A DNA stretch of 64,000 nucleotides, taken from Dillenia suffruticosa. Taxonomy: Eukaryota; Streptophyta; Magnoliopsida; Dilleniales; Dilleniaceae. Of the stretch, positions 11,219-59,604 are shown in pieces (positions within the stretch are counted from its first letter, which is position 1; each line of letters begins with the position of its first letter). The notes beneath the pieces were generated by a model. The model searched no databases. It saw only the letters and a list, made by a program, of their open reading frames with translations, and was not told the origin of the DNA. Both the position numbers and the translations under genes were made by a program. The stretch lies in the NCBI GenBank assembly GCA_033439265.1, contig JAVTVX010000005.1, positions 4,660,001 to 4,724,000 of the forward strand. Reading direction: 5' to 3'.

Positions 11219-12152
11219 GGTGGTGGCGTAGCAAATATGCGAGCGCTGCTGCACGTGGCGATGCACGTGCCCCTTCGGCAACGCAAACAGAACCTCGGAT
11301 GTTCCTGCATGGTCCTTGGGTAAGGAACTGTACTAAGTCATCGGGCCATTCATCTAATTCATATTAAACTTTATTTTATTACAAAATATTACATTTATAT
11401 AATGACGATTTAATTATAAAGAAGTTACATTTTGAATTAATGAACAGTTTAAGCAATTAAGCATATCAACGTGCTAACGATTATTCTGACAATTATAATA
11501 ATATAAATAAGTTATTTAATATAAATATGGAAACTTGTCAAAAATACTATACAAACAATAAATTAAGGTAACATATTTTTCTTGGTTGCTAGTTTGTAAG
11601 AAATGAAATTGCGAGGAAGATTAACCTAAGATTTAATCATGTATTAAGAAGATCGTAAATTAGGTTTCCCCACCATCCTTACACGGTAGGGCACCTTTTC
11701 TTGACTCCACACTCAATACTTGTACTTGATGAATTAGAGTTTTTTTTTTTTTTCATGATTTAAGAAACAACACGTGATAAATCTTTATAACGAAAAACTT
11801 TTATATGGAATTAAATTTTTTTTAGTTATTCAGTTTTTCTAAATTAATTAGTATTTATTTTTCGTACGACAAAGAGAAAGAAAAAATTGTTATTATTGGT
11901 CGAGGAGAAGAATTGTCACTAAAATTTGGACATTGAACCCCATTTTTAAATCAATAACCAAATAAATAATATTTGACATAATACGATGTTCTTAGTAAAA
12001 CATGAAGGGCCAAAAATGGCAGAATTTTTATAACAAAGATTTTATCAATTTATTTGTTGACTTGTTTTTCTTATTGAATTAATGGTTTATAAAAGATAAA
12101 ATGTGAATCATGTCTGATGCAACAAACAAAAGAATTCCGATGAAAGCCAACT
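11219..12152 (-). pseudogene. Decayed cysteine-rich peptide gene (copy 1)
   Basis: The 3' part of an exon 2 at about 11219-11310 reads RFCLRCRRGTCIATC, matching YCLQCQRGTCITEC of the neighbouring gene at 12322. The first cysteines and pro-region are not recognisable. About 0.8 kb upstream, 12113-12152 is an exon 1 relic reading KLAFIGILLFVAS. It lacks the initiator region (the ATGGAGAAAC seen in other copies is gone) and the splice donor is changed. It belongs to the subfamily of the 12.3 kb gene. Confidence 0.6.
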
Positions 12153-12321
12153 TATTATCAATAACTCTATTATAAAAATTTAAGATTCAAATCTTATTTC
12201 ACTCAAAAAGAGAAATATAAGTAGGAAAGGCTATTTCTTATTATTGATTGAGAAGATCTGAAGGTATGGAACCTCCAAAATGTGCGGATAACAAATTAGG
12301 ATGTGGTGGCATAGCAAATAT

Positions 12322-12801
12322 TCAAGCCTCGCCGCACTCGGTGATGCACGTGCCCCGTTGACATTGCAAACAATATCTTCCACAGTGAGGAGAAACTTCG
12401 GCTCGACCAACACAGTCCCTGACGTTCGTGCAAGGTCCGACAGATGTGGTCGACACATTCTGTGGCCTTTGAACCCGTCCTGTTTCCTCAGCACTCAAAT
12501 TTAAACCTGTACCCAAATTCACATGAGTTTTTGTCATTTCAGTTTTGGGAAGAAGTAACGTTAGAAATAAATAATAAATTAATTGGATTAAATTTTTATA
12601 TCTGTTTAGAGAAATAAAAATTTATTTTAATGAAAAAAATACAATATAGAAAGGAATTTATCATTTTATTTATTGACTTTTTTCTTTTTTCAATTTTAAT
12701 CTAAAAAAGAATTCGAAAGGAGAGAAAGAGAGAGTCTTGCCTGATGCAACGAGTAAAAGCATTACGAAAATAGCCAACCTGATGAAGGGAAGTTTCTCCA
12801 T
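12322..12801 (-). CDS. Secreted cysteine-rich peptide, seven-Cys variant (copy 2)
   Basis: Two exons, 12741-12801 and 12322-12506, give an 81-residue precursor. Exon 1 encodes the signal peptide MEKLPFIRLAIFVMLLLVAS. The phase-1 intron starts with GC (CAG|GCAAGA) and ends TACAG. Exon 2 starts LNLSAEE and has a variable pro-region, then cysteines spaced C-x5-C-x9-C-x3-C-x2-C-x4-C-x3-C. Leaving out the fourth Cys, this matches the array pattern, so one cysteine is extra and could be free or make a dimer. A TATAAATA lies about 105 bp upstream of the ATG. The mature domain is far from its neighbours while the signal exon is close, typical of fast-evolving secreted peptides. I do not recognise the family; defence or signalling is inference only. 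The start is fixed by the conserved MEKL exon. Confidence 0.7.
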
Positions 12802-12903
12802 TGTTTGAAATGACTGCGTTATGGTGTCTATATCTGGGGACTTGCCTTTTCTTTTTTTCTTTTTCCCTTGATAATTTGTGTAGAATGGCTTTGTGATTCA
12901 TAG

Positions 12904-12911
12904 TATTTATA
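12904..12911 (-). promoter_or_regulatory. TATA box of copy 2
   Basis: TATAAATA on the minus strand about 105 bp upstream of the ATG at 12801. The same box in the same context (CTATAAATAC) lies 90-110 bp upstream of the other intact GC-donor genes, which supports it as the core promoter. Confidence 0.6.
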
Positions 12912-12964
12912 GCATTACTCAACCAGAACTTTAGATTTGAATATGGAAAGTTAAATGCAATCAA

Positions 12965-13643
12965 TTAGAATACTAATTCATTATTCTTAAAATAATGGAA
13001 ATTTCCTATTTTATTCCCATTAAATATATACTTTCATTTGGAAAGTCACTATTTTTCTATGTAAAAAAAAAAAAAAAATAACCCAGACAAAAGTGCATTC
13101 TTCCTATTTTCCTGAAAAGAATTTGATAATTATTTACTACTTTCCCAATACCTAAACTTATTTTATGGAAGTATTGTAAATGCATGCTTGGTATTAGGGT
13201 ATAATTTTTATAGTAAAAAAAAATCAATAATTTAAATAACAAAATTTGACATAGTACAATTTTCATAGTAAAATCAATAAGGGCACAACAACACAAATTT
13301 TCTACTTTGTTCACAGTAGATATATAAAATTTTCCAAAGAGTTTCAATGTAAAAGAACCAAAAAAAAAAAAAAAAAAAATCCATGAAAAGAATTTATAAC
13401 TATTTTCTACTTCCCGTCTGTCATGATAACTATATATATTTTATCAAAATAATGAATAATTTTGTTGTTTAATTAATTAACTTATTTATAATTAGTATAT
13501 AAGGTGCTCGCCAATCTCGCTTCCATGGCAATCTTGCTCGTACAAAAATCATTTTACCATCATTCATGAAAAATCTGAAGAATTTTTTTTTTTTAAAGAA
13601 TTCTATATTTAACTTTGATTCGTGGACTTCTAGCTTTCCCTCT
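12965..13643. other. AT-rich spacer, no gene
   Basis: Poly-A/T runs and low-complexity sequence. Parts recur near 16.1-16.5 kb and 24.3-24.6 kb as flanks of the duplicated peptide-gene unit. ORFs here carry no protein features. Confidence 0.4.
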
Positions 13644-14485: not shown

Positions 14486-14845
14486 CTACTCCTCCTTGCA
14501 CCTGTAGAGGCAGGAGCCATTGTAACATTCTACACTGATTAATTGCTTACAAGCAGGAGGGATATTGGAAGGAGGATTAACACACATCTTGATGTTCTGG
14601 TTGCATTGTCCTTTGATAAAGATCCTGACTGACTCGTTGGGCACAATCTCTGGACTCTCTACTGCTTCGTTTGCCTCACTGCTCAACTTTAAACCCCAAC
14701 CAAATCCATATTCTTTTTGTCATTTCATTTACGTCAAAAGACACTAAAAATAATTAATAATTATACTATAATTTTCTTAGTAAAATCATTAAGGCACATG
14801 GCAAAATTTTGTGAATATGCAATATGTTTTTAAACTCTGTCTAGC

Positions 14846-14909
<64 letters not shown>

Positions 14910-14972
14910 ATTTGATGCCCCTGATAAAATCAGGGCGAAAAAGTCGAACTTGATGAAGTGAAGTTTCTCCAT
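14486..14972 (-). pseudogene. Cysteine-rich peptide gene with both splice sites lost (copy 3)
   Basis: Exon 1 (about 14912-14972) reads MEKLHFIKFDFFALILSGAS and exon 2 (14486-14694) is fully open, with cysteines spaced C-x6-C-x10-C-x7-C-x4-C-x3-C and ending YRCKEE. The donor that is GTAAGT in sister copies is here ATAAAC, and the acceptor CAG is changed to GGG, so the standard intron cannot be removed. The intron beside the dead donor contains a (GA)n run grown to about 58 bp. No TATAAATA was noted at the usual distance. Most likely non-functional, though the mature-peptide exon itself has no stop. Confidence 0.7.
14847..14904. repeat. (GA)n microsatellite, about 58 bp
   Basis: An uninterrupted GA repeat at the position where sister genes have a short CU tract just after the 5' splice site (minus strand). 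It was probably expanded by slippage after the splice site decayed. Confidence 0.95.
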
Positions 14973-20749: not shown

Positions 20750-21990
20750 TTATTCTTTTCTTCTCCTAATATTGGGAAATAGATTTGTCAAAATAACAAT
20801 CAACAAAGTGTGCTGTAGACAAATCTTCTGCCATAGGTTCAAAATATTTAATAATCGATAAAAATTCATACCCAATGTATATCCCCGATCGCCTTTGTGA
20901 TCCCATTTTAGTTCGTTGTGGTGGAGTAATAGAGATACTGCACATCCAAAAATTCTCAAATGAGAGATATTTGGTTTCTGAAGATGAATCAAATGTAATG
21001 TGAAAAAATCATTATCACTTATTGGTCGGATATGAATAAGTGCTGCTACGTGTAAAACAACATATCCCCAAGCAGAAATTGATAATTTTGCTCTTATAAG
21101 CAATGGTCTTGTAATCAATTAAATGCATTTAATGAGTGATTCTGATATATCATTTTGAGTGTGAACATATACTACATGATATTCTACACTTATCCCAATA
21201 GACATATAATATTTATCAAAATTTTGGAATGTAAATTTATTAATATTATCAAAACGAATTTTCTTGATCGGATAATCTAGAAAATGTGCTCATAATTTAA
21301 TTAACTATATAAATAATCTCGCAAATATCGAGTTGTGAGTTGATAATAATAATACATATGATCACCTGGTTGATGCATCAATCAAAACCATAAAATATTT
21401 GAATGGTTCATATGGTGGGTGTATAGACACAAATATTTTCGTGCATTTGTTCAAAAAATTCAAAAAGCTCATAATTTATTTTAACTCGTGATGATCTCAC
21501 AATTAATTTGTTTTGAGAGCAAATAATACAAATAAATTCATTGGATTGAAAAATGTCCATATGAATCATTTATAATTTTTTGCATCATTATTGATCCGGG
21601 ATGATCCAATCAATCATATCAAATAATAAAATCATTTAACTTAGTAAACTTTTGTTTACTATTGCATATGCTTCTCTTGTATTATTATGTGTAATACAAA
21701 TCATAAGAGTATGCCGGTAATTTTTCTAATATTTTTTTATCTCCTAAAATTATATTCGTAATATGAAAGTACTCAATATTTTCTTCACTTATTGTCTCAA
21801 TATGATACCCATTTCTACGGATATTTTTAAAACTCAATAAATTTCCTTGAGATCTGGGAGAGTACAATATTTCACCAATTTCAAATTTAGTTCCTCTAGG
21901 CAAGAATATATTAATTCTTCCGGAACCTTCTATCAATTTTGTACTATCAGATATGATATTAACATTGGTCTCTTGCATTATAAATTTCAA
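20750..21990 (-). pseudogene. copia 1 pre-integrase and integrase remnants
   Basis: ORF 21685-21990 reads LYSPRSQGNLLSFKNIRRNG, the GAG-pre-integrase region of copia elements. ORF 20750-21118 contains GYVVLHVAALIHIRP and FGCAVSLLL, which resemble the integrase C-terminal part. The core between is broken by stops. Confidence 0.7.
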
Positions 21991-22256
21991 AAAAATATAT
22001 TTCTTTTTAACACTTCCATCGCCAATTAAGTCGTTAAACTTTCCTTCGGGATATATATTTGTGATCTATTGGAGTTTTTAATTAATTTCGTACTACCACT
22101 TATGATATCAACCGTTGTTTCTTTTAATTTCGAGCAGGAGAAGTAATTATTATTATATATATCGCAATATTATCAATGAGATATTCATCTTTCTTACCTT
22201 TTATTCATTTCAGAATATTCTCAAAACCTTTTGAAAACTTATATTGTTTTTTCTCA

Positions 22257-22637: not shown

Positions 22638-22908
22638 TATTATGCCTTTAAATTATTTTAATGGTATTTTCAAGACCTATTTCATCTAGATGTATTTCAG
22701 CATCTAACATCCATAATAAATAATTTTTTTTCCATAATATCAAAAGTCACAAATTTGAGTTTCGTAAAGTACAACATTATCAACTGTAACAAGTAAAGAG
22801 AAAATAAATAATACATTTATAAAATATATATATATTTTAATGAAAACTTGTTGATTAAATACGTGGTATTATTACACCAAATCTGTAACTTATAATAAAC
22901 CTTTAGAC

Positions 22909-23650: not shown

Positions 23651-24156
23651 CTACTCCTCTTTGCAACTGTAGATGCATGAGCCATTGTAACATTCTACAC
23701 CGATTATTTCCTTACAATCAAGAGGAATATTGGAAGGAGGATTAACACACATATTGATGTCCTGGTTGCATAGTCCTTTGACAATGATCCTCACTGACTC
23801 ATTGGGCACAATCTTTGGACTCTGCACTGCTTCGCTTGCCTCACCGCTAAACATTAAACCTGCAACCAAATCCATATTCCTTTTATAATTTCATTTATGT
23901 CAAAATCCATATTTCTTAGTAAAATCATTACGGCACATGACAAAATATTTGAAAATGCAATGTCTTTAAAGTCTGTCAAGCATATGAGAGAGGGAGAGAG
24001 CTGATAGGGCATAAATTAGTATAATAATTGTGATTGACTTTTTTGGTTTTCTTAATCTAATTAAGCATTCAAAAAAGAGAAGAAGAGAGGATTGCCTGTT
24101 GCAACGAGCAAAAGCATTGCGGAAAAAGCCAACTTGATGAAGGGAAGTTTCTCCAT
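23651..24156 (-). CDS. Secreted six-cysteine peptide (copy 4)
   Basis: Exons 24096-24156 and 23651-23859 give an 89-residue precursor. The signal peptide MEKLPFIKLAFSAMLLLVAT is followed, across a phase-1 intron, by a pro-region (GEASEAVQSPKIVPNESVR) and a domain with cysteines C-x6-C-x10-C-x7-C-x4-C-x3-C ending SCKEE. The donor is GC (ACAG|GCAATC), a weaker match than the CAG|GCAAGT of the 30 kb gene; the acceptor is TTGCAG. TATAAATA lies at 24247-24254. Module M2 is on its 3' side, as in copies 3, 5 and 11. No stop or frameshift. Extracellular location follows from the signal peptide; function is unknown. Confidence 0.75.
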
Positions 24157-26546: not shown

Positions 26547-26988
26547 CTACTCCTCTTTGCACCTGTAGATGCATGAGTAATTGTAGCATTCTACACTGAT
26601 TAATTGCTTACAAGCAGGAGGAATATTGGAAGCAGGATTAACACACATCTTGAGGTCCTGCTTGCAATATCCTTTGATAAAGATCCTCACTGACTCATTG
26701 GGCACAGTCTCTGGACTCCGCACTGCTTCGCTTGCCTCACCACTCAACATTAAACCTGCGACCAAATCCATATTCTTCTTGTTATTTCATTTATGTCAAA
26801 AGACACTAAAAATAATTAATAATTACTATAATTTTCTTAGTAAAATCATTAGGGAACATGGCAGAATTTTTGAAAATGCAATATGTTTTTAAATTCTGTC
26901 TAGCAGATGAGAGAGAGAGAGACTTACCGGATGTCCCTAATAAAAGCATGGCGAAAAAGGCCAACTTGATGAAGGGAAGTTTCTCCAT
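26547..26988 (-). CDS. Secreted six-cysteine peptide (copy 5)
   Basis: Exons 26928-26988 and 26547-26755 encode 89 residues. The signal peptide is MEKLPFIKLAFFAMLLLGTS. The intron is a normal GT-AG one (CCG|GTAAGT, CGCAG) followed by a short CU tract. The pro-region SGEASEAVRSPETVPNESVR leads to cysteines C-x6-C-x10-C-x7-C-x4-C-x3-C ending YRCKEE. Closest relatives are copies 11 and 3. A TATA-like CATAAATA lies at 27121-27128, about 135 bp upstream, beyond a long (TA)n run. Module M3 is on its 3' side, separated by a 600-bp insertion. The reading frame is intact and both splice sites are good, so this is the best candidate for a functional gene of the GT-donor group. Function is unknown. Confidence 0.78.
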
Positions 26989-27443: not shown

Positions 27444-28238
27444 TTATCAAAGGCTTTCTCAAGTAACGTTTGTACTTAGTTAAACTTATTGTAGGAAAAA
27501 ATGAGAATAATATTTAGGGATAATTTTTATTCTACGGACATAAATTAGTTAATGGGTTAATTCTGCCTATATTAAATTCACCTTTGTTACCAAAGTCCTC
27601 ATTTATATATATAGAGTTACATACCAAACAGAGTAATTGTTTAATTTAATTAAATTTATTAGCAATAAGTTATAGGTATTTTGAGTATTCATTATATACA
27701 TTAATGCAAATAAAAAACTGATGGAACTATGTAGGAACAGACCATGTGCAAATTAGTCTTACCCATTTTTTAACTTTGCATGTTATATTTTTTCTAATCT
27801 AATCATGATTTTTTTTTCATATTTAATTTTATTTTTCTGACTAAAAGCAGAAGAGTATAGATTGGCTAGGTTGTAAAGAATCGGAAACAAAAAAATGAAA
27901 ATAGATACGAAACGATAGAATACAGGAAATAGAAACGTATGAGAAACCATAAATATGAAAAATATCAAAAGTTGCGCGTAAATATTAATTATTTTATAGC
28001 AATAATAGAATAGTTATATTTTATAATAATAATTTAAAATGATCAAATATATAATCATTAACCATAAAACAAATAAAATAATTCAATAAATAAATAATTC
28101 ATTAAACATGAGAAGATATATAAATATCTAAAATATAAGAATTTTTGTATAAATATTAAATAATTTAACGTGTCGAACTCTTTCGTAAACAAAAATATTA
28201 ATATTAAGAAATTTCTGTATATCAAAAAGAGAAGATAC
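27442..28238. other. AT-rich spacer; left part of duplicated block A
   Basis: No gene. Near-identical sequence restarts in copy C at about 54527 (CAGACCATGTGCAAATTAG) and a diverged form is in copy B at 46.0-46.8 kb. Together these define the left side of the duplication. Confidence 0.5.
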
Positions 28239-28241
28239 TTA

Positions 28242-28528
28242 GTGCCCGTTTGGTAGGGCATTTTTTTGGCTTTTCTGCTTCTTATAAAGAGAAGCAAAAA
28301 TTAATAGATTTTAAAATTAAATTAAAAATTGTTTGGTATTTTTACTTTTAAAAATAAACTGATTTTATAAATTTTGAAATAATGTTAAAAGTTAAAAGTT
28401 AAAAATTAAAGTTAAAAAGAAAGAGAGGACATAAGGTAAATAAATTTATGATATGGATATATTTAGAATTTCATATCTTTTAAGTGAGGATATAAATGGA
28501 ATAAAAGGAAATATATTTCCTAAAAAGC
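28242..28528. mobile_element. Possible Tourist-like insert in block A
   Basis: Starts GTGCCCGTTTGGTAGGGC, a sequence typical of plant DNA-transposon ends, and is flanked by TTA on both sides. Block B at 46800 runs straight through (GATACTTACTATGG) without it. Block C has it at 55019-55320. The right terminal inverted repeat is not convincing. Confidence 0.4.
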
Positions 28529-28739
28529 TTATGGATAGTTATTTTGATCCGTAACTAATATTTTTTTATGTGTTCACAATTATAAGTTGTTTATATAGTT
28601 TTAGACAACTACTAGTCTAAATATTAAATTTGTATTAAGAAAGTTTTGCACTATATATAAGGTTTGTCCAGCGCAGATACATATACGATGTTATTGGTGG
28701 GGCAATGTTGTAATCGTCCATCCATATAAATAATGTGAT

Positions 28740-29076
28740 AACGTCGTGACTATAGCAAAATTTTCACATTGGCTACCTTTGTTGCCTCGGCACTCAAAAT
28801 TAATCATGTAACCATATTTTTTTTACAAAAAATTAGAAAACTAGCCGTATCTGGATTCGAACCTTGGTCTGAAATCCTAGCTTTGAATTCAAACACGGCC
28901 ATTTTTCTGATTTTTTTTTTTCATTTTATTCTTTTAAAACATGCCATGAATATTAGAGTTAAGTTGAAATGAAAGAATTTAACTTAATATTGTTTACTTT
29001 GGGAGCGAGACTTTCGATATGCAACGAATAAAGGCATTACCAAAAAAGCCAACTTGATGAAGGGAAGTTCCTCCAT
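28740..29076 (-). pseudogene. Decayed cysteine-rich peptide gene (copy 6, block A)
   Basis: Exon 1 (about 29016-29076) reads MEELPFIKLAFLVMPLFVAY but its donor is lost (ATCGAAAG). The downstream relic 28740-28812 reads LILSAEAT, the first residues of an exon 2, and then ends without cysteines; its acceptor is also changed. Copies in the same state are in blocks B and C, so it died before the duplications. Confidence 0.65.
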
Positions 29077-29696
29077 TGTTTGAAATGACTTTGTCATAGG
29101 TTTTTTTTTTCTTTTTTTTTTTTTTTGACATAAGAATCTCAAAAACTGTAAAAATACACACGTTCACAAAGTTTTGAACACTAGATCTAAGGGAAGTCAC
29201 CTGAGGTGGAGTTATTTATCACTTGGATATCCCTGTAAGGACTTATCATAGTATTGTGCATTGTATACGAGGACTTGCTTTTTCTTTTTTCCCCTTTTTT
29301 GATGATTCTAGCATTTATTCCACAAAATCTTTTAATATGAATATGGAAATGGCAAGAATTTCCTATAATAGCATCCAATAAAAGTTTTACTATTTCCCTT
29401 CTATCAAGAATTTGTTAACTATTTTCTACTTTCCAGTTGTTATAAATTCTCTTCTACCAACAATATACAAAATTAAATTTTATTCTATAGTAGCATTTGG
29501 ATCAGGTTTATCTTTACTAGCGATTATGTTAGAAGAGTTTAGATTTTCGAGTTTTTACCATCTCCAAAGAAAAGGGAAAGTAATATAACCTTTTCAATTT
29601 TTGAGTTCTTTTCGTTTTGGATTCAAATCTATGAGAAAAAAAAAAGTAAAAGGAAGAATATTAAGCGTAAAAGAGCAAAATTTATTATTATTGGAA

Positions 29697-29730
<34 letters not shown>

Positions 29731-29812
29731 TATGTGATTACAAAGATTCAAAGAGATCTCAGAAAAACACATAAATAATAATTTTTTTTTTATCATTTGA
29801 GTATCCAAAATA
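29077..29812. other. Spacer with ATT microsatellite
   Basis: AT-rich. Contains poly-T runs (29101-29125) and an (ATT)n run (29698-29730), both kept in block C. No gene seen. Confidence 0.5.
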
Positions 29813-30368
29813 TTAGATCAAGCATGAATAGGCGCAATTGTGGAGATGACATTCTTTGTCGATCATCTTCTTGCAACCCGGAAGAGCGGGAGGGATACAG
29901 TCCCTGATTTGATTGCAGTGTCCTACGATAAACACCCTTACTAATTGATCGGACGCCCTTATTAATTGATCGGGCTGAGGCTCTGGACTTTGAACTCCCT
30001 CTTTTGCTTCTGCACTCAAAATTAAACCTGCAATCAAATTCAAATATATAAATATATATTGTGATTTCATTTTTGTGGAAGAGTAATGCCCAGATGTTCA
30101 AATAAATTATGATTTGACAAATTAAATTTTTCATTTTTTGTGATAAGCAATAAATTTTGACTAATTTTTAGTTAAATATTTGATTGAATCTGTAAAAACT
30201 GATTTGTTAAAAATATATTTTATTTTTTAATTTGTCGATTTTGTCATTTTATTTTAATTTGGTTAATGATTAGAGAGGGAGAGAGAGAGAGAGAGAGAGA
30301 AACTTGCCTGGTATAACAAACAAAAGCATTGCGAGAAAAGCCAACGTGATGAAGCGAAGTTTCTCCAT
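29813..30368 (-). CDS. Secreted six-cysteine peptide (copy 7, block A)
   Basis: Exons 30308-30368 and 29813-30027 encode 91 residues. The signal peptide is MEKLRFITLAFLAMLLFVIP. The intron has the ideal GC-type donor CAG|GCAAGT followed at once by a CU tract, and acceptor TTGCAG. Cysteines are spaced C-x5-C-x7-C-x7-C-x4-C-x3-C, ending YSCLI. The pro-region holds a tandem duplication, DQLIRAS then DQLVR, absent from the block B gene. Exon 2 is identical to that of the block C gene at 56600. TATAAATA is at 30465-30472. The frame is intact and likely functional; role unknown. Confidence 0.78.
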
Positions 30369-30464
30369 TGTTTGGAATGATGGTCGTTTATCTGAGGACT
30401 TTCTTTTTTCTTTTTCTTTTTGCTTTTCTTTTACAGAATTACTTTTCCTTTTGGTGTTTAATTG

Positions 30465-30472
30465 TATTTATA
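30465..30472 (-). promoter_or_regulatory. TATA box of copy 7
   Basis: TATAAATA about 97 bp upstream of the ATG, conserved in blocks B (50718-50725) and C (57252-57259). Confidence 0.6.
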
Positions 30473-30539
30473 GAATTAATCAACCAAATTTTCAGACACA
30501 AATATGGAAACCCAACAAGAACTTCCTGTCTTGTACACA

Positions 30540-30541
30540 GT

Positions 30542-30581
<40 letters not shown>

Positions 30582-30990
30582 TTATTTATTTATTTATTTA
30601 TATATATATTTATTTGGAAAGAGCACTATTTTTCTATGTAAAAAATATTTAAGTAATTATTTATTTATTTATTTATTTTAATCAGTATAATATAGCATAA
30701 ATTGAAACATGACTCAATTGAACTCAATAATGTTAGAAACGGATTAATTGAAATATGATTCCGGATATTAGTTATAAAAATAATGAACTCATATACTTCC
30801 TAAAAATATTTTAATAAAAATTAAAATGATATATAATGGTAATTTTTTATTAAATGGACATAAATTGGGTTAGTGAATTATCCTATATTCTATTTAATAT
30901 TTAATGCAAATATATATATCATAGTTTATTTTAAGAGTTGAATATAGTCGTGGTGCGCATATTACACCTTCGCACCACACCCTCTGATAG
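30540..30990. other. TA/TTTA microsatellites and AT-rich spacer
   Basis: A (TA)n run at 30542-30577 and TTTA repeats at 30578-30600 and 30659-30680, then AT-rich sequence shared by blocks A, B and C. No gene. Confidence 0.6.
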
Positions 30991-31005
30991 TGTCCTTATA
31001 TTTCA

Positions 31006-31037
31006 CTTGATCTTAGCCAAAAGGCCGAGAAAGGTAT
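31006..31037 (-). pseudogene. U2 snRNA 5'-end fragment, block A
   Basis: On the minus strand, ATACCTTTCTCGGCCTTTTG followed by GCTAAGATCAAG, the first 32 nt of U2 snRNA. The match ends abruptly at AAG. It is flanked by GTGTCCTTATATTTCA (30990-31005) and GTGTCCTTTATATTTCA (31039-31055), direct repeats of about 17 bp. The unoccupied site is at 51232-51248. It is an inserted fragment, not a working snRNA gene: nothing after nt 32 is present. Confidence 0.8.
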
Positions 31038-31329
31038 GGTGTCCTTTATATTTCATACACTAATCTCTATCCAACTTCATGTTTTGTTCTATCTTTGACA
31101 GAATTCTGTCCTCATGAATACTCCAATTGGAATGCTCTTTTTCAAAATATAAAATTATACTATTATTGTTAAATTATTCTTAAAGTGTTATTGAGCAAAT
31201 TAAAAGCATCGGTAAAAAAATTATTGTATAAGTTTCCTATGTGCCAGTACTTTTCTTTTCATTTTTCATTTTTTTTTTATATTTCATGTGTATTGGAGGT
31301 GGGTTTGTTTCACAGTTAAATTGCGCTGT

Positions 31330-32180
31330 CAACTCAAATAGAGAATCAGTACAGATGTGTCTACTGAGCCTTTGTAGATGGAGACCTACAAAATACCTGC
31401 TGAAGGTGATCCAACGGAGGAACCTCTGATGTTCAAGTCAGAAAGACATATAAGAGAGAGAGAACAGTCCATAAAGATGTTTAAATTTACCCTATGTAGT
31501 CTCTAAGTAATATGTGTATTTAATGTCTAAAGAGCATATCAGGTGGGTTATCTCTGTTCAATATATATAGCAAGTGTATACAATGGCAAGTCTCTTGCTG
31601 TAGTATAAAAATCTTAATTATCTTATGGAGAGATTGTTGGAAATTTTTTGAGAGTACACGGATTGTAGTCAAAGATTTTTAAAAGATTTAAGATCTTATG
31701 AAATTAAGATAAATTCAAATTGTCAAGAAAATTTCCTTCCTTATTGGACAAGATTACTCTTAAAATTAGGAAAAATTTAAATTTTGGATAATTATGATCT
31801 TGATTTGCTTGACAGAAATGTTATCTAGTGGGAGACCATTTGGTAGTAGCTGAGAGATTAACCCAGAATATGTGCTGAGTAGTGGTCGAGAGTGTTCAAA
31901 CGAGCACCTATTCGGTCGTCTTAGGTGTTTATTGGGAGACCCCTTGGTGATATGTGGGTTTGGTGATTATGGACTGTTAGCCCCGGTTGTTTGAGCATTG
32001 CACCATTTGTTTTCTTTTTTGGTATTATACCAACCAGTATCCAAAATCATATTCTTATTAATTTGGTCCGAAACTTGCAGTAATCCATTTAAGGTGCTTC
32101 CCTCCCAACGTAGACCGTTTCATGCCCAAGTCGCAAGTCGAATTCAGAAATTTGGTTAAAAGATCTAGTACAACATCTCA
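31330..32180 (-). mobile_element. Probable gypsy-type solo LTR, block A
   Basis: On the minus strand the block starts TGAGATGTTGTACTAG, holds a TATATATTGAACAGAG promoter-like site near 31560, and then GACTTGAACATCAGAGG with a run of C/T-rich sequence, the arrangement of the R region of plant gypsy LTRs. A GCGC...CTGTGAAAC motif follows, resembling a decayed primer-binding site. No internal region is attached. Copies are in blocks B and C. Borders are approximate. Confidence 0.5.
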
Positions 32181-32738
32181 TTAAGCCAACTAACGGTTAA
32201 TACTATTTGTTCAAAATGTAAAAGTACGGAGATATATTTTACTTAAATTATTATTAATTTTTTTCTTTTTCTTAACTCGTTCAACCAAAAAATATGAAAA
32301 TAAATAAATAAATAAATAAATCGTAGCATGGTGCTTATTTCTTTTATTTTTTTATCACAAGATTGGATAAGTGAGTTATGATCATTAGGCTGTCCTTGCA
32401 TATAGGGGTGAGCATTCGGTTAAATAATATCGAAATGATTAAAATTAGAATAACCGATTTAATTTAATTATATAATTTTCATAACCATAATTTAACTGAA
32501 TAAATTAAAAACCGATCGCTTATTTATTCGAATTAGGCGATTAATTCGATTCGATTATTCAAATTAATCAAATTATTGAATCTTTTACTATATATTTTTA
32601 TATCAATTTGTGGTTATAACATAAAATTTTAAATTTTAAAATTTACTTATAACTTTAATTCATCAAATGTAACTTTATAAATTTCAAACAAAATTAATAA
32701 AATATAAATTTTAAAATTTACTTATAGCCTTGAATCTC

Positions 32739-33199
32739 TCACTTTGCTATTTCGCAAAAAGCGTAGCAACCCCAGCGACACACATTTTCTTATAAAGATA
32801 TTCGCAAGTAGAAGGAGGCACGTATTTTTGACAATTGGCGTCGTCACCACCTTTGCAACCTCCTATGAAAGTCCAAGCCAGCCTCTTAATTGATGCATAA
32901 GGATCGTCGAACTTTGGACTTTCCACTGGTGGTTCTCTTGCCTCACCACTCTTCGTCACACCTGTAACCAATTTGTTTCTCATCATACTAATTAAATTCT
33001 ATTAGAGCTAAAAAAAGTTAAATAATGGTGTTCGATCAAATTGATTTTTTCAAAAAGAAAACACAAACCAATCACCACTTTGGATATTTCTGTTACTGAA
33101 TTTTTTTTTTAATCTTGGTTACTAAGTTTTTCAATCTAATACATATATATCACTCATGTGGAGGGAGGAGGGAGGGAGGGAGGGAGGGAGAGGGAGAGA

Positions 33200-33233
<34 letters not shown>

Positions 33234-33296
33234 GGAAAATGCCATGAAGAGAATGGCTGCTAAGAAAGCCAGATTGACGAAGGACAACTTCTCCAT
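32739..33296 (-). pseudogene. Frameshifted cysteine-rich peptide gene (copy 8, block A)
   Basis: Exon 1 (from 33296) reads MEKLSFVNLAFLAAILFMA with no clear GT or GC donor. Exon 2 starts at 32961 after TTACAG and reads VTKSGEAREPPVESP with cysteines C-x7-C-x8-C-x7-C, then a 1-nt deletion in a C-run near 32770 shifts the frame (VAGVATLF). The block C copy keeps the C-run and reads through C-x4-C-x3-C to EIAK and a stop. This represents a third subfamily of the array. The intron contains a (GGGA)n run. Confidence 0.7.
33161..33197 (+). repeat. (GGGA)n run with G-quadruplex potential
   Basis: At least five consecutive GGGA units followed by GA repeats, in the intron of copy 8. Four or more G3 tracts with one-base loops meet the usual G-quadruplex pattern. 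Confidence 0.75.
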
Positions 33297-39680: not shown

Positions 39681-39836
39681 TCTTCTTCACTCTCTTCCTC
39701 CTTTCTCTCTCTCTAACCTTTGCCTCACCTACACCCTCCCTCTCTCAATCGCTTCAACCTCTCTCTTGATGTCCTGGTTGCATTGTCCTTTGACAAATAT
39801 CCTCACTAACTCATTGGGCACAATCTTTGGACTCTG
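39681..39836 (-). pseudogene. CT-rich tract and exon 2 fragment of a peptide gene (copy 9)
   Basis: 39681-39768 is the CT-rich leader normally found before a GC module. It joins directly to 39769-39836, which reads SPKIVPNELVRIFVKGQC and NQDIK, the middle of an exon 2 closest to copy 4. The rest of the cysteine domain is gone. Confidence 0.6.
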
Positions 39837-40617
39837 CAATATGTTTTTGAAAATTTTTGAAAGTATTAGGGATATGTTTGAGTAAATATTAGGATGTTCC
39901 AATTTTGAAAATATGAGAGAGGGTGACAAAGATATTTGTTGCCCTATTAGGCCAAAAGGGTATAAAGCATGGGAGTAGGCATGGGATATTTCTAGGGTGA
40001 CAAACATATTTTTGAAAATATGTTTCAATACCCAATTTGGCACGGTGAAACCAGGGGCGGCCAAACCTTGGGAGTAGGCATGGGAAAATTGGGGGGCCAT
40101 AACGCATCGATAGAACTGTTGGGGGCCAAAGTAAAAAATTTGAAGGGTACGAGTAGAAATATGCACAATAACATGACTGATGTATATAATTTTTCAAACC
40201 TTGCCCCTTTTAAGGTTGTTCATGTCCCAGGTTGCGGAGAAAACGAGCAACTTGAATGACTTGCTAATTTCAGATTAAATATAAATTTTCAGAATCAAAT
40301 CTTAGTTTCTAGAGTAAATCTTATTTCTTTCCTACTTTTATAAATTTAGTAATAATAATAATAATAATAAAATCTAGTCACACAGATATTATTTTTTTTA
40401 ATAGTAATATTAATATTGTGTTTGTAACTTTCTTTAATATTAGTATATAATTGAGCTCTTTAATAATAGTAAAAAAATTCACGAGAGTTTGGGATATACG
40501 TAATTTTGAAATTCTAATAATTTGAGTTATTACAACAACAATAAATTAAAATTTAATTCTAAATTTTTGGTCAACCATTTAAGAGAGCAAAAAATTTTCT
40601 AATTCTATATATTAGAA
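39837..40617. other. Unassigned spacer
   Basis: Contains two near-direct repeats around GGGAGTAGGCATGGGA (39970 and 40070) and a short G-rich stretch at 40050-40120; then AT-rich sequence with an (ATA)n run near 40351. ORFs on both strands at 39.7-40.3 kb look like chance. Possibly a decayed retroelement. Confidence 0.3.
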
Positions 40618-42089: not shown

Positions 42090-42151
42090 TGGATGCCCCT
42101 AATAAAAGCATGGCGAAAAAAGCCAAACTTTATGAAGCGAAGTTTCTCCAT
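42090..42151 (-). pseudogene. Frameshifted exon 1 of a peptide gene
   Basis: Starts MEKLRFIKF, then an extra base relative to copy 5 (AAAGTTTGGC against AAGTTGGCC) shifts the frame, and the donor is gone (ATCCATAAAC). No exon 2 is close by. Confidence 0.65.
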
Positions 42152-42551
42152 TGTGGTGTTGTGTATTATATGTTAGGACTTGCATGCATATATATAATAT
42201 TTTTACAAAATTACCTTTTCTTGTGGTGATTTATTGTATTTATGGTACTAATTAATTAACATTAGATTGAATAAATAAATAATAAATTAATTTGATTAAA
42301 TTTTTATATCTGTCTAGAGAAGTCAAAATTTATTTGAAAGAATAAAATACAACATAAAAAGGAAGTATCGGATGCGTTATGATTTTTAAAGAAAAAAGCA
42401 TTTTAAAGAATTTGAATTATATTTTGAAAACTTTTAATAGCATTTCTAAGCTCTACACTTAGAACTTTTACAATATATCATTTTATTTATCGACTATTTT
42501 GGTTTTCTTAATCAAATTATGCATTCACAAAAGAGAAGAAGAGAGTCTTGC

Positions 42552-42612
42552 CCGATGCAACGAGTAAAAGCATTGCGGAAAAAGCCAACGTGATGAAGGG
42601 AAGTTTCTCCAT
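42552..42612 (-). pseudogene. Orphan exon 1 with promoter (copy 10)
   Basis: Intact 61-nt signal exon MEKLPFITLAFSAMLLLVAS with a GC donor (CGG|GCAAGA) and TATAAATA at 42703-42710. The intron runs on with homology to copy 2 to about 42250, then switches to the flank of another copy without any exon 2. Transcription could start but no mature peptide is encoded nearby. Confidence 0.65.
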
Positions 42613-45502: not shown

Positions 45503-45944
45503 CTACTCCTCTTTGCACCTGTAGATGCATGAGTAATTGTAACATTCTACACTGATTAATTGCTTACAAGCAGGAGGAATATTGGAAGGAGGATTAACAC
45601 ACATCTTGAAGTCCTGGTTGCAATATCCTTTGATAAAGACCCTCACTGACTCATTGGGCACAGTCTCTCGACTCTGCACTGCTTCGCTTGCCTCACCACT
45701 CAACATTAAACCTGCAACCAAATCCATATTCTTCTTGTTATTTCATTTATGTCAAAAGACACTAAAAATAATTAATAATTATACTATAGTTTTCTTAGTA
45801 AAATCATTAGGGAACATGGCAGAATTTTTGAAAATGCTATATGTTTTTAAATTGTGTCTAGCAGATGAGAGAGAGAGACTTACTGGATGTCCCTAATAAA
45901 AGCATGGCGAAAAAGGCCAACTTGATGAAGGAAAGTTTCTCCAT
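45503..45944 (-). CDS. Secreted six-cysteine peptide with damaged promoter (copy 11)
   Basis: Exons 45884-45944 and 45503-45711 encode 89 residues. Signal peptide MEKLSFIKLAFFAMLLLGTS; GT donor (CCA|GTAAGT) with a short CU tract; acceptor TTGCAG. The pro-region GEASEAVQSRETVPNESVR precedes cysteines C-x6-C-x10-C-x7-C-x4-C-x3-C ending YRCKEE, so it is nearly the same peptide as copy 5. The upstream region differs: after a short TA run at 46003-46010 the sequence jumps to what lies beyond 27441 in copy 5, deleting about 0.4 kb with the TATA box. The coding frame is intact, but expression may be lost or changed. Confidence 0.72.
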
Positions 45945-47109: not shown

Positions 47110-47496
47110 TAATGCGATAATGTCATGACTATAAAAAAATTTTCACAATGGCTGCCTTTGTTGCCTCGGCACTCAAAATCAATCATGTAACCATTTTTTC
47201 CATTTTATTTATTTTTTTACAAAAAATTAGAAAACTAGTCGTTTCTAGATTCGAACCTAGGGTTTGAATGAGAGTATGAAACCCTAGGTTCGAAAACCCT
47301 AGGTTTGAATTCAAACACGGCCATTTTTCTGATTTTTTTTCCATTTTATTCTTTTCAAACATAATGTGAATATTAGAGTTAAGTTGAAATGAAAGAATTT
47401 AACTTAATATTGTTTACTTAGAGAGCGAGACTTTCCATATGCAACGAATAAAAGCATTATCAAAAAAGCCAACTTGATGAAGGGAAGTTCCTCCAT
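47110..47496 (-). pseudogene. Decayed cysteine-rich peptide gene (copy 12, block B)
   Basis: Same state as copy 6: exon 1 from 47496 reads MEELPFIKLAFL with a broken donor, and an exon 2 start relic (LILSAEA-like) lies at 47150-47190 without cysteines. The interval contains a local duplication around CCCTAGGTTCGAA (47250-47310). Confidence 0.6.
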
Positions 47497-50086: not shown

Positions 50087-50523
50087 TTACGGTAGCATGG
50101 CATTGACCGTGCACGAATAGGCGCAATTGCGGAGCTGACATTGTACCCCGATTATCTTCTTACAACCCGGAAGAGCGGGAGGCATACAGTCCCTGATGTC
50201 ATTGCAGTGTCCTACGATAAACACCCTTATTAATTCATTGGGCTGAGGCTCTGGACTTGCTTCTGCACTCAAAATTAAACCTGCAATCAAATTCAAATAT
50301 ATAAATATATATTGTGATTTCATTTTTGTGGAAGAGTAATGCCCAGATGTTCAAATAAATTATGATTTGACAAATTAAATTTTTCATTTTTTGTGATAAG
50401 CAATAAATTTTGACTAATTTTTAGTTAAATATTTGATTGAATCTGTAAAAACTGATTTGTTAAAAATATATTTTATTTTTTAATTTGTCGATTTTGTCAT
50501 TTTATTTTAATTTGGTTAATGAT

Positions 50524-50556
<33 letters not shown>

Positions 50557-50621
50557 TTGCCTGGTATAACAAACAAAAGCATTGCGAGAAAAGCCAACGT
50601 GATGAAGCGAAGTTTCTCCAT
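50087..50621 (-). CDS. Secreted six-cysteine peptide (copy 13, block B)
   Basis: Exons 50561-50621 and 50087-50280 encode 84 residues. Exon 1 (MEKLRFITLAFLAMLLFVIP), the GC-type intron (CAG|GCAAGT) and the promoter are practically the same as in copy 7, but exon 2 is clearly different. The pro-region is shorter (SAEASPEPQPNELIRVF), the domain is C-x5-C-x7-C-x7-C-x4-C-x3-C with many replacements, and the C-terminus is longer (TVNAMLP). TATAAATA is at 50718-50725. Intact and probably functional; role unknown. Similarity to copy 7 drops right at the intron-exon 2 border. Confidence 0.77.
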
Positions 50622-54202: not shown

Positions 54203-54295
54203 TCACTTTGCTATTTCGCAAAAAGCGCAGCAACCGCCAGCGACACACATTTTCTTATAAAGATATTCGCAAGTAAAAGGAGGCACGTATTTTTG
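54203..54295 (-). pseudogene. Truncated exon 2 of the third subfamily (copy 14, block B)
   Basis: The end of the exon seen at 32739: CEYLYKKMCVAGGC-like codons and CAFCEIAK followed by a stop, with CC in place of CY. The 5' part is replaced by a CT tract and module M5 at about 54295. Confidence 0.6.
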
Positions 54296-54527
54296 AATCT
54301 CTCTCTCTCTCTCTGGCAGCAGCGGCATAACGTGGAGATTGACGTCCTATGGCCTCACCATCAAACAGTGAGGCTTGCCCACAAAGGGAGGCCACCATGG
54401 CGGTGGGTATGGGCTACCATCGCCAGGAGACCAAGGGCTGCCAGACTGCATTGCGCTGCGTGTGGCCAATTTGGTGCTTGAAGCCCCAACTCTTCTCTCA
54501 GCTAGGACCGGCTCACCAGACCATGTG
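54296..54527. repeat. CT tract and GC-rich module M5 (truncated)
   Basis: A short CT run and then the module start GGCAGCAGCGGCATAACG. It breaks off inside the hairpin region at CAGACCATGTG, where block C begins; both partners share CAGACCA, so the join has microhomology. Confidence 0.6.
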
Positions 54528-55018
54528 CAAATTAGTCTTACCCATTTTTTAACTTTGCATGTTATATTTTTTCTAATCTAATCATGATTTTTTTTCATAT
54601 TTAATTTATTTTTTTGACTAAAAGCAGAAGAGTATAGATTGGCTAGGCTGTAAAGAATCGGAAACAAAAAAATGAAAATAGATACGAAATGATAGAATAC
54701 AGGAAATAGAAACGTATGAGAAACCATAAATATGAAAAATATGAAAAGTTGCACGTAAATATTAATTATTTTATAGCAATAATAGAATAGTTAGATTTTA
54801 TAATAATAATTTAAAATGATCAAATATATAATCATTAACCATAAAACAAATAAAATAATTAAATAAATAAATAATTCATTAAACATGAGAAGATATATAA
54901 ATATCTAAAATATAAGAATTTTTGTATAAATATTAAATAATTTAACATGTCGAACTCTTTAGTAAACAAAAATATTAATATTAAGAAATTTCTGTATATC
55001 AAAAAGAGAAGATACTTA
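54528..55018. other. AT-rich spacer; left part of block C
   Basis: Near-identical to 27746-28241. No gene. Confidence 0.5.
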
Positions 55019-55320
55019 GTGCCGGTTTGGTAGGGCCTTTTTTTGGCTTTTCTTCTTCTTATAAGGAGAAGCAAAAATTAATAGATTTTAAAATTAAATT
55101 AAAAATTGTTTGGTATTTTTACTTTTAAAAATAAACTGATTTCATAAATTTTGAAATAATGTTAAAAGTTAAAAATTAAAAGTTAAAAGTTAAAAATTAA
55201 AGTTAAAAAGAAATAGAGGACATAAAGGTAAATAAATTTTTGATATGGATATATTTAGAATGTCATATCTTTCAAGTGAGGATATAAATGGAATAAAAGA
55301 AAATTTATTTCTTAAAAAGC
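55019..55320. mobile_element. Possible Tourist-like insert, block C
   Basis: Counterpart of 28242-28528, with small tandem changes (AAAAGTTAAAAATT units). Same TTA flanks. Confidence 0.4.
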
Positions 55321-55539
55321 TTATGGATAGTTATTTTGACCCGTAACTAATATTTTTTATGTGTTCACAATTATAAGTTGTTTATATAGTTTTAGACAAC
55401 TACTAATCTAAATATTAAATTTGTATTAAGAAAGTTTTGCACTATATATATGGTTTGTCCAGCGCAGATACATATACGATGTTGTTGGTGGGGCAACGTT
55501 GTAATCGTCCATCCACATAAATAATGTGATAACGTCGTG

Positions 55540-55865
55540 ACTATAGCAAAATTTTCACATTGGCTGACTTTGTTGCCTCAGCACTCAAAATCAATCATGT
55601 AACCATTTTTTTTTTACAAAAAATTAGAAAACTAGCCGTATCTGGATTCGAACCTTGGTCTGAAATCCTAGGTTCGAATTCAAACACGGCCATTTTTCTA
55701 ATTTTTTTTCCATTTTATTCTTTTAAAACATGCCATGAATATTAGAGTTAAGTTGAAATGAAAGAATTTAACTTAATATTGTTTACTTTGGGAGCGAGAC
55801 TTTCTATATGCAACGAATAAAAGCATTACCAAAAAAGCCAACTTGATGAAGGGAAGTTCCTCCAT
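55540..55865 (-). pseudogene. Decayed cysteine-rich peptide gene (copy 15, block C)
   Basis: Counterpart of copy 6: exon 1 from 55865 (MEELPFIKLAFLVM), donor lost, and an exon 2 start relic at 55560-55605 without cysteines. Confidence 0.65.
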
Positions 55866-56484
55866 TGTTTGAAATGACTTTGTCATAGGTTTTTTTTTTC
55901 TTTTTTTTTTTTTTTGACATAAGAATCTCAAAAACTGTAAAAATACACACGTTCACAAAGTTTTGAACACTAGATCTAAGGGAAGTCACCTGAGGTGGAG
56001 TTATTTATCACTTGGATATCCCTGTAAGGACTTATCATAGTATTGTGCATTGTATACGAGGACTTGCTTTTTCTTTTTTCCCCTTTTTTGATGATTCTAG
56101 CATTTATTCCACAAAATCTTTTAATATGAATATGGAAATGGCAAGAATTTCCTATAATAGCATCCAATAAAAGTTTTACTATTTCCCTTCTATCAAGAAT
56201 TTGTTAACTATTTTCTACTTTCCTGTTGTTATAAATTCTCTTCTACCAACAATATACAAAATTAAATTTTATTCTATAGTAGCATTTGGATCAGGTTTAT
56301 CTTTACTAGCGATTATGTTAGAAGAGTTTAGATTTTCGAGTTTTTACCATCTCCAAAGAAAAGGGAAAGTAATATAACCTTTTCAATTTTTGAGTTCTTT
56401 TCGTTTTGGATTCAAATCTATGAGAAAAAAAAAGTAAAAGGAAGAATATTAAGCGTAAAAGAGCAAAATTTATTATTATTGGAA

Positions 56485-56515
<31 letters not shown>

Positions 56516-56599
56516 TATGTGATTACAAAGATTCAAAGAGATCTCAGAAAAACACATAAATAATAATATTTTTTTTTTATCATTTGAGTATCCAAAATA

Positions 56600-57057
56600 T
56601 TAGATCAAGCATGAATAGGCGCAATTGTGGAGATGACATTCTTTGTCGATCATCTTCTTGCAACCCGGAAGAGCGGGAGGGATACAGTCCCTGATTTGAT
56701 TGCAGTGTCCTACGATAAACACCCTTACTAATTGATCGGACGCCCTTATTAATTGATCGGGCTGAGGCTCTGGACTTTGAACTCCCTCTTTTGCTTCTGC
56801 ACTCAAAATTAAACCTGCAATCAAATTCAAATATATAAATATATATTGTGATTTCATTTTTGTGGGAGAGTAATGCCCAGATGTTCAAATAAATTATGAT
56901 TTGACAAATTAAATTTTTCATTTTTTGTGATAAGCAATAAATTTTGACTAATTTTTAGTTAAATATTTGATTGAATCTGTAAAAACTGATTTGTTAAAAA
57001 TATATTTTATTTTTTAATTTGTCGATTTTGTCATTTTATTTTAATTTGGTTAATGAT

Positions 57058-57090
<33 letters not shown>

Positions 57091-57155
57091 TTGCCTGGTA
57101 TAACAAACAAAAGCATTGCGAGAAAAGCCAACGTGATGAAGCGAAGTTTCTCCAT
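56600..57155 (-). CDS. Secreted six-cysteine peptide (copy 16, block C)
   Basis: Exons 57095-57155 and 56600-56814 encode a 91-residue precursor with the same protein sequence as copy 7: the same signal peptide, the same DQLIRAS/DQLVR duplication and the same C-x5-C-x7-C-x7-C-x4-C-x3-C domain. Donor CAG|GCAAGT, acceptor TTGCAG, and TATAAATA at 57252-57259. The flanks are also nearly identical, so the duplication is recent, or the pair is being homogenised, or the assembly contains an artefactual repeat. Intact and probably functional; role unknown. Confidence 0.77.
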
Positions 57156-57771
57156 TGTTTGGAATGATGGTCGTTTATCTGAGGACTTTCTTTTTTCTTT
57201 TTCTTTTTGCTTTTCTTTTACAGAATTACTTTTCCTTTTGGTGTTTAATTGTATTTATAGAATTAATCAACCAAATTTTCAGACACAAATATGGAAACCC
57301 AACAAGAACTTCCTGTCTTGTACACAGTAGATATATATATATATATATATTTATTTATTTATTTATTTATTTATTTGGAAAGTGCAATATTTTTCTATGT
57401 AAAAAATATTTAAGTAATTAATTAATTAATTATTTATTTTAATTATTATAATATGGCATAAATTGAAACATGACTCAATTGAACTCAATAATGTTCGAAA
57501 CGAATTAATTGAAATATAATTCCGGATATTAGTTATAAAAATAATGAACTCATATACTTCCTAAAAATATTTTAATAAAAATTAAAATGATATATAATGG
57601 TAATTTTTTTATTAAATGGGCATAAATTGGGTTAGTGAATTATCCTATATTCTATTTAATATTTAATGCAAATATATATATATATCATAGTTTATTTTAA
57701 GAGTTGAATATAGTCGTGGTGCGCATATTACACCTTCGCACCACACCCTCTGATAGTGTCCTTATATTTCA

Positions 57772-57803
57772 CTTGATCTTAGCCAAAAGGCCGAGAAAGG
57801 TAT
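57772..57803 (-). pseudogene. U2 snRNA 5'-end fragment, block C
   Basis: Same 32 nt and same flanking direct repeats as at 31006. Confidence 0.8.
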
Positions 57804-58084
57804 GGTGTCCTTTATATTTCATACACTAATCTCTATCCAACTTCATGTTTTGTTCTATCTTTGACAGAATTCTGTCCTCATGAATACTCCAATTGGAATG
57901 CTCTTTTTCAAAATATAAAATTATACTATTATTGTTAAATTATTCTTAAAGTGTTATTGAGCAAATTAAAAGCATCGGTAAAAAAATTATTGTATAAGTT
58001 TCCTATGTGCCAGTACTTTTCTTTTCATTTTTCATTTTTTTTTATATTTCATGTGTATTGGAGGTGGGTTTGTTTCACAGTTAA

Positions 58085-58937
58085 ATTGCGCTGTCAACTC
58101 AAATAGAGAATCAGTACAGATGTGTCTACTGAGCCATTGTAGATAGAGACTTACAAAATACCTGCCGAAGGTGATCCAATGGAGGAACCTCTGATGTTCA
58201 AGTCAGAAAGAAAGATAAGAGAGAGAGAACAGTCCATAAAGATGCTTAAATTTACCCTATGTAGTCTCTAAGTAATATGTGTATTTAATGTCTAAAGAGC
58301 ATACCTGGTGGGTTATCTTTGTTCAATATTTATAGCAAGTGTATACAATGGCAAGTCTCTTGCTGTAGTATAAAAATCCTAATTATCTTATGGAGAGATT
58401 GCTGAAAATTTTTTGAGAGTATAGTTAAAGATTTTTAAGAGATTTAAGATCTTATGAAATTAAGATAAATTCAAATTGTCAAGAAAATTTCCTTCCTTAT
58501 TGGACAAGATTACTCTTAAAATTAGGGAAAATTTAAATTTTGGATAATTATGATCTTGATTTGCTTGACGGAAATGTTATCTAGTGGGAGACCATTTGGT
58601 AGTAGCTGAGAGATTTAACCCAGAATATGTGCTGAGTAGTGGTCGAGAGTGTTCAACCGAGCACCTACTCGGTCGTCTTAGGTGTTTATTGGGAGACCCC
58701 TTGGTGATATGTGGGTTTGGTGATTATGGACTATTAGCCCCGGTTGTTTGAGCATTGTACCATTTGTTTTCTTTTTTGGTATTATACCAACCAGTATCCA
58801 AAATCATATTCTTATTAATTTGGTCCGAAACTTGCAGTAATCCATTTAGGGTGCTACCCTCCCAACATAGACTGTTTCATGCCCGAGTCGCAAGTCGAAT
58901 TCAGAAATTTGGTTAAAGGATTTAGTACAACATCCCA
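58085..58937 (-). mobile_element. Probable gypsy-type solo LTR, block C
   Basis: Collinear with 31330-32180. Starts TGGGATGTTGTACTA on the minus strand. Confidence 0.5.
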
Positions 58938-59490
58938 TTAAGCCAACTAACGGTTGATACTATTTGTTCAAAATGTAAAAGTACGGAGTTATATTTTACT
59001 TAAATTATTATTAATTTTTTTCTTTTTCTTAACCGTTCATCCCAAAAATATGAAAATAAATAAATAAATAAATAAATCGTAGCATGGTACTTATTTCTTT
59101 TTTTTAATCACAAGATTGGATGAGTGAGTTATGATCACTAGGCTGTCCCTGCATATAGGGGTGAGCATTCGGTTAAATAATATCAAAATGATTAAAATTA
59201 AAATAACCGATTTAATTCAATTATACAATTTTCATAACCATAATCTAATCGAATAAATTAAAAACCGATCGCTTATTTAATCGAATTAGGCGATTAATTC
59301 GATTCGATTATCCAAATTAATCAAATTATTGAATCTTTTACTGTATATTTTTATATCAACTTGTGGTTATAAAATAAAATTTTAAAATTTAAAATTTACT
59401 TATAGCTTTAATTCATCAAATGTAACTTTATAAATTTCAAACAAAATTAATAAAATATAAATTTAAAATTTACTTATAGCCTTGAATCTC
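58938..59490. other. AT-rich spacer, block C
   Basis: Matches 32181-32738. No gene. Confidence 0.4.
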
Positions 59491-59604
59491 TCACTTTGCT
59501 ATTTCACAAAAGGCGTAGCAACCCCCAGCGACACACATTTTCTTATAAGGATATTCGCAAGTAGGAGGCACGTATTTTTGACAATTGGCATCGTCACCGC
59601 CTTT
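59491..59604 (-). pseudogene. Truncated exon 2 of the third subfamily (copy 17, block C)
   Basis: Reads through KMCVAGGCYAFCEIAK to a stop, showing the undamaged C-terminus that copy 8 has lost by a 1-nt deletion. The 5' part is cut at about 59604, where gypsy LTR sequence starts; CTTTA(C) is shared at the join. Confidence 0.65.

Follow-up and report, generated by a model that had tools for sequence, protein, structure and literature searches.

A lineage-specific tandem array of six-cysteine peptide genes in Dillenia suffruticosa, predicted to be secreted and tentatively related to the defensin-like class

Among the described systems closest to the locus reported here are plant defensins and defensin-like (DEFL) peptides (PF00304), in which structural elements follow the order strand-helix-strand-strand, and Bowman-Birk inhibitors (PF00228), with the canonical loop C-T-K-S-I-P-P-x-C. 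According to the papers cited here, NCR peptides show a large expansion (PMC7230169), as does the array described below, AtLURE1 genes form a species-specific cluster of defensin-like genes (PMC3525529) whose products carry six cysteines (PMC13033167), tandemly duplicated clusters of cysteine-rich peptide genes are present in pear (PMC5557327), and genes of such a kind tend to escape common search tools (PMC3924332). The array in question lies on the minus strand of a 64,000-nucleotide (nt) stretch of the Dillenia suffruticosa genome, hereafter the window (C5:4660001-4724000; the genome comprises 596 Mb in 37 contigs, 26 of them >10 Mb), and encodes six-cysteine peptides. The family is real, unnamed and lineage-specific, yet of a familiar kind. 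The reading we place first, tentatively and at slightly less than an even chance, is that of a lineage-specific family of secreted cysteine-rich peptides under birth-and-death evolution, an offshoot of the defensin-like class that most probably serves defence or signalling, defence being the likelier use.

The minus strand of the window contains 17 family loci when each piece is counted separately (18 including a frameshifted exon 1), which bears out the initial annotation with its at least 17 loci. These 17 comprise two-exon loci, seven of them open genes and two decayed copies, as well as single-exon remnants, and open, decaying and fragmentary copies stand side by side, as had also been proposed. 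Exon 1 with an ATG is found in 13 minus-strand copies, starting with MEKL or MEEL, while four remnants consist of exon 2 only (near 11.2, 39.8, 54.3, and 59.5 kb). A weak exon-1-like match at 12109-12174 has no ATG and is excluded from the locus count. Since single-exon pieces are potential halves of one broken gene, the original gene number may lie below 17. The motif C-x5-7-C-x7-10-C-x6-7-C-x4-C-x3-C has eight matches on the minus strand of the window, none on its plus strand, and none on either strand of 100 first-order Markov sequences derived from the window. By mature sequence the family falls into five types, namely A (with the close D), B, C, E, and F, where three or more subfamilies had been noted; type F members lie outside the window. 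The features of the window are as follows.

11199..11363, minus strand: exon 2 remnant, type C; cysteine-rich halves in differing frames
12322..12801, minus strand: type C gene, open; exon 1 12741-12801, intron 12507-12740, exon 2 12322-12506; donor CAG/GCAAGA; seven cysteines
14486..14972, minus strand: decaying type B copy; six cysteines in an open exon 2; ATAAAC at the donor position; AG acceptor not listed at the usual place
23651..24156, minus strand: type B gene, open frame; weak GC donor CAG/GCAATC
26547..26988, minus strand: type B gene, open; donor GTAAGT, intron 172 nt
27738..32854, no strand assigned: duplicated block, 96.3% identical to 54517-59604; holds a type A gene and a MEEL exon 1
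29016..29076, minus strand: exon 1 alone (MEEL type); GAAAGT at the donor position; exon 2 not found within ~1.2 kb
29813..30368, minus strand: type A gene, open; donor CAG/GCAAGT, intron 280 nt, TATAAATA at -104 from the ATG
32750..33296, minus strand: type E copy, decayed; exon 1 33231-33296; CCAACT at the donor position; exon 2 tail frame-changed, without the last two cysteines
39765..39869, minus strand: exon 2 remnant, type B; similarity stops shortly past the first cysteine
~42091..42153, minus strand: frameshifted exon 1 copy; the alignment shows a one-base length difference
42552..42612, minus strand: exon 1 alone, open; family exon 2 not found within ~1.2 kb
45503..45944, minus strand: type B gene, open; donor GTAAGT, intron 172 nt
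47436..47496, minus strand: exon 1 alone (MEEL type)
50087..50621, minus strand: type D gene (A-like), open; donor CAG/GCAAGT, intron 280 nt
54206..54346, minus strand: exon 2 remnant, type E
55805..55865, minus strand: exon 1 alone (MEEL type)
56600..57155, minus strand: type A gene, open; predicted protein identical to the product of 29813-30368
59494..59646, minus strand: exon 2 remnant, type E

In all seven open models of the window exon 1 measures 61 nt and is followed by a phase-1 intron (172-280 nt), exactly the layout initially claimed. The first exon would encode most of the signal peptide and the second its remainder, followed by a short stretch rich in proline and acidic residues and by a compact domain. 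The signal peptide spans the intron and in most types ends in S-A/G-E-A or a similar sequence, after which cleavage probably takes place; from this signal-like exon we infer that the peptides are secreted. Five of the seven open genes use GC donors (GCAAGT, GCAAGA, or GCAATC), with exon 1 at 12741-12801 (C), 24096-24156 (B), 30308-30368 (A), 50561-50621 (D), and 57095-57155 (A), the type B donor at 24.1 kb being weak. By type, GC donors belong to A, D, C, E, and weakly to this one type B gene, and GT donors to the remaining open type B genes. If the frame of exon 2 is taken as fixed, types A and D require the GC donor, because splicing at the GT four bases further on would put exon 2 out of frame. 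Of the 14 upstream regions aligned, 8 carry a TATAAATA box at a distance of 87-110 nt from the ATG (C12, B24, F42, A30, D50, A57, E142, and Q149), with F42 and Q149 being exon-1-only loci and the A/D regions nearly identical to each other.

Mature peptides were compared in a hand-chosen alignment of 12 sequences, which omits fragments, repeat copies, and the 33-kb type E copy lacking two cysteines, and includes three peptides whose source copies lack a functional exon 1 or splice site (B at 14.5 kb, E at 76 kb, and F at 146 kb). Within this alignment the six cysteines are invariant and the mean column identity is 49%. The C-x4-C-x3-C tail, previously described as invariant, is indeed kept in 12 of the 12 peptides, but not in the decayed type E copy at 33 kb, where the last two cysteines are missing. 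Type C has one additional, seventh cysteine. Every type has proline in its Cys 2-Cys 3 loop: types A-F have one placed 2-3 residues ahead of Cys 3, and A, B, D, and E contain "PP"; among four aligned type B members of the window the loop differs by at most 3 residues. Net charge, calculated as Lys+Arg minus Asp+Glu, ranges from -3 to +3 in eight mature peptides. The compact domain is presumably closed by three disulfides, and its predicted elements are a strand, a loop or short helix, and a beta hairpin.

The array had been thought to end at 59.6 kb, and this boundary has to be abandoned. When the window is extended by a 60-kb left and a 140-kb right flank (264-kb stretch), further exon 1 copies appear on the minus strand as far as window coordinate 149 kb, ~85 kb beyond the window, and the array totals ~138 kb. 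An iterated profile search of this stretch with exon 2 yields 29 matches with E <0.01 (48 at E up to 10). Region-wide, 30 exon 1 copies were examined, 17 of which yield two-exon models without internal stops (seven of these in the window); the 17 models predict nine distinct proteins, every one with all six cysteines. Large duplicates within the array have lengths of 27.4, 18.3, 14.2, and 11.9 kb (identity of 98.5%, 98.5%, 98.2%, and 98.7%, respectively) and are spaced ~43 kb apart in three pairs and ~86 kb in one, whereas smaller duplicate pairs have about 81 to 98% identity. No N run was found inside the array. Such an array would grow by segmental duplication and decay by loss of exons and splice sites.

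Elsewhere in the genome, a single decayed relative of exon 2 is present (C2:1399374-1399538); its 79-codon open frame retains three of the six cysteines. Protein queries of types A, C, E, and F and DNA queries with exon 1 and type A exon 2 found no further relatives outside the array; types B and D were not separate queries, and the counts are lower bounds. A marginal match on C19 (E 0.24), which contains a stop, was not counted. Gene layout, array, and the limits of the family within the genome are established by these data.

Several neighbouring features were recorded as well. In the right flank, the minus strand carries at window coordinate 151276-151834 a MEKR signal-like exon and, after it, a cysteine-rich stretch interrupted in frame by a stop (perhaps a decayed relative of greater age), and at 171966-172301, just past the array, a distinct cysteine-rich open reading frame (ORF; C-x3-C-x3-C twice). 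An unrelated 2.6-kb duplicate pair (99%) also lies right of the array. Within the window, a ~2-kb repeat family in inverted orientation flanks the array part (1929-3979 and 60121-62406, pieces 74-83% identical). Three units of ~0.5-0.7 kb, 88-93% alike, stand in a row at 34288-36199, with a solo copy at 59601-60120 beside a type E remnant. Related segments at 21182-22916 and 37323-39076 (82%) contain decayed ORFs that resemble pieces of copia-type retrotransposons.

According to library searches, the family is an unrecognised one, which is in line with the initial annotation. Pfam gave no credible match for the 12 mature members and six further translations at E up to 10 (HMMER filters discard most matches above about 0.1 in such scans), NCBIfam gave none for four proteins (a weak test, since this library covers bacteria and archaea), and sequence searches of PDB gave none either. 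A clear hidden Markov model hit to a named peptide family, which would have spoken against novelty, was looked for in Pfam and NCBIfam and not found; PF00304 (plant defensin), PF07127 (late nodulin / NCR), and PF00228 (Bowman-Birk) are not among the Pfam matches listed. NCR genes likewise have two exons, but NCR peptides end in C-x4-C-x-C rather than in the C-x4-C-x3-C of the array peptides, which in addition lack a Pfam match.

Regarding plant defensins, the PF00304 model has four matches elsewhere in the same genome and none in the array. Array peptides are likewise small, cysteine-rich, and preceded by a signal-like exon. They differ in having six instead of eight cysteines, without the C-x3-C paired with C-x-C of the cysteine-stabilised alpha-beta signature, in the absence of any Pfam or profile match, and in not being clearly cationic. 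They do not belong to the defensin family proper. The genes nevertheless have the defensin-like layout of two exons, the first encoding signal peptide and the intron in phase 1. Clear models exist for three of the four own-genome defensins. In each, a phase-1 intron interrupts the signal peptide; their first exons measure 61, 64, and 55 nt, and one of the three combines a 61-nt first exon starting MEK with a phase-1 intron and cleavage after an EA/EAR-like motif, as in the array.

Structure prediction for the six-cysteine domain, one of the checks suggested at the outset, gave a split answer. AlphaFold2 with the 12-sequence alignment reaches for type A a mean predicted local distance difference test (pLDDT) of 78.5, with ten-residue blocks from residue 21 at 90-96; strands are predicted at 22-29, 46-53, and 56-62, and helix only as two three-residue stretches. 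For type E (mean pLDDT 76.9) strands at 18-25, 43-52, and 55-62 and a helix at 31-36 reproduce the beta-alpha-beta-beta order of defensins, while type A has no clear helix. Because of gene layout and, more weakly, this order, we tentatively place the origin of the family in the broad defensin-like class. The early statement that the peptides are unlike defensins is thus valid for the cysteine signature, but not clearly so for the broader class, given the gene layout and one of two folds.

As for rates of change, the A30 and D50 genes are 99.6-100% identical over 300 bases upstream, exon 1, and intron, compared with 89% in exon 2 and 75% over 300 bases downstream. This pattern implies that the 5' half was homogenised or exchanged and that change extends beyond the mature part. 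Between B24 and B46 the mature part has 18.2 nonsynonymous and 0.8 synonymous changes, and the signal parts 8 and 7. Codon models fitted to three sets (six type B members; those with A30 and D50; a set with type C and without B14) estimate omega at 0.99-1.30 for the mature part and 0.56-0.65 for the signal.

A number of observations weigh against the reading placed first. Identity of exon 2 relative to intron, in 10 pairs, is higher in 3, equal in 1, and lower in 6, and omega does not differ significantly from 1 (log-likelihood gain of at most 0.03 for the mature part and 0.6-1.1 for the signal). Taken together, omega and identity comparisons indicate that, around cysteines kept by open copies, the mature part evolves at roughly the pace of non-coding sequence; diversifying selection and relaxed constraint both fit. 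The TATAAATA box is not at its place in 6 of the 14 upstream regions, including those of the open type B genes B27 and B46. Phase-1 introns in signal peptides are common among secreted proteins generally, the fourth own-genome defensin has an ambiguous first exon (tied models of 76, 84, 66, and 63 nt), and the defensin models were picked by eye, the first two not being the best-scoring. Profile comparison by hhalign with the four own-genome defensins gives a probability of 0.2-0.3%, and Foldseek finds no credible fold in PDB (best E 1.9 and 0.7), although small disulfide-rich chains are hard for this tool and the negative is therefore a weak one.

Part of this evidence is what one would expect if the peptides had no kinship with defensins and formed a secreted cysteine-rich family of their own, a separate lineage-born six-cysteine scaffold sharing only a common signal-exon layout, which we regard as somewhat unlikely. 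The missing defensin cysteine signature fits it, as do the lack of a fold match and the presence of a clear helix in the type E model only, and the blank hhalign result coincides with a working within-family control (A/B/D half against E/F half, 85%, E 6e-6). Opposed to it are the 61-nt exon 1, phase 1, and EA/EAR-like signal end shared with own-genome defensin genes, and the beta-alpha-beta-beta order of one model. Another reading, to which we give a slightly lower chance, is that a new three-disulfide scaffold arose in one plant lineage, adopted a defensin-type signal exon, and split into subfamilies A-F with different Cys 2-Cys 3 loops, with protease-inhibitor activity possible in type E.

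Two further explanations appear improbable to a similar, greater degree. In the first, the peptides would serve reproductive signalling as pollen coat, stigma, or pollen-tube attractant peptides, like those of LURE or PCP clusters. AtLURE1 provides a precedent, likened here by description, of six-cysteine peptides (PMC13033167) from a species-specific defensin-like cluster (PMC3525529), and omega is higher in mature than in signal parts, neither being significantly different from 1. Against this, no receptor kinase was noticed by eye among ORFs of at least 110 codons in the 264-kb stretch, where a family search was not run. In the second, the array would be mostly decaying, its copies having spread with duplicated repeat-rich segments and retaining little or no function. 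Ten of the 17 window loci are broken, omega is about 1, exon 2 diverges at about the pace of the intron, and duplicated segments carry repeats besides genes; frame, splice sites, and six cysteines are, however, retained in nine distinct spliced proteins. Most open copies are recent, and therefore this retention is a weaker argument against decay.

The least probable proposal, protease inhibitors whose proline-rich Cys 2-Cys 3 loop would plug microbial or insect serine proteases, draws on the short Pro-Pro loop of type E between two cysteines (C-Q-K-Y-I-P-P-S-T-C), which resembles the canonical Bowman-Birk loop with Lys at P1 and is a lead only, on the loop prolines and near-conserved type B loops described above, and on near-neutral charge. 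Against it stand the absence of a Bowman-Birk match at E up to 10, Tyr instead of Ser at P1', a type A loop (IPPALPG) out of register, and a loop length that varies over 7-10 and departs from the consensus.

Returning to a defensin-like offshoot, its peptides would act extracellularly on a protein target, such as a microbial protein, a protease, or a receptor, and not by membrane lysis, which may be suggested, more weakly, because the net charge is only -3 to +3. Apoplastic defence is judged the likeliest use on a general case made up of array dynamics, quick change, and near-neutral charge. In plants, new peptides for defence and recognition evolve in lineage-specific cysteine-rich arrays. 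The present array is compact, is nearly the sole site of the family in the genome, and holds open and dying members together, and since its cysteine pattern is without match in the libraries searched, fold and target are directly testable.

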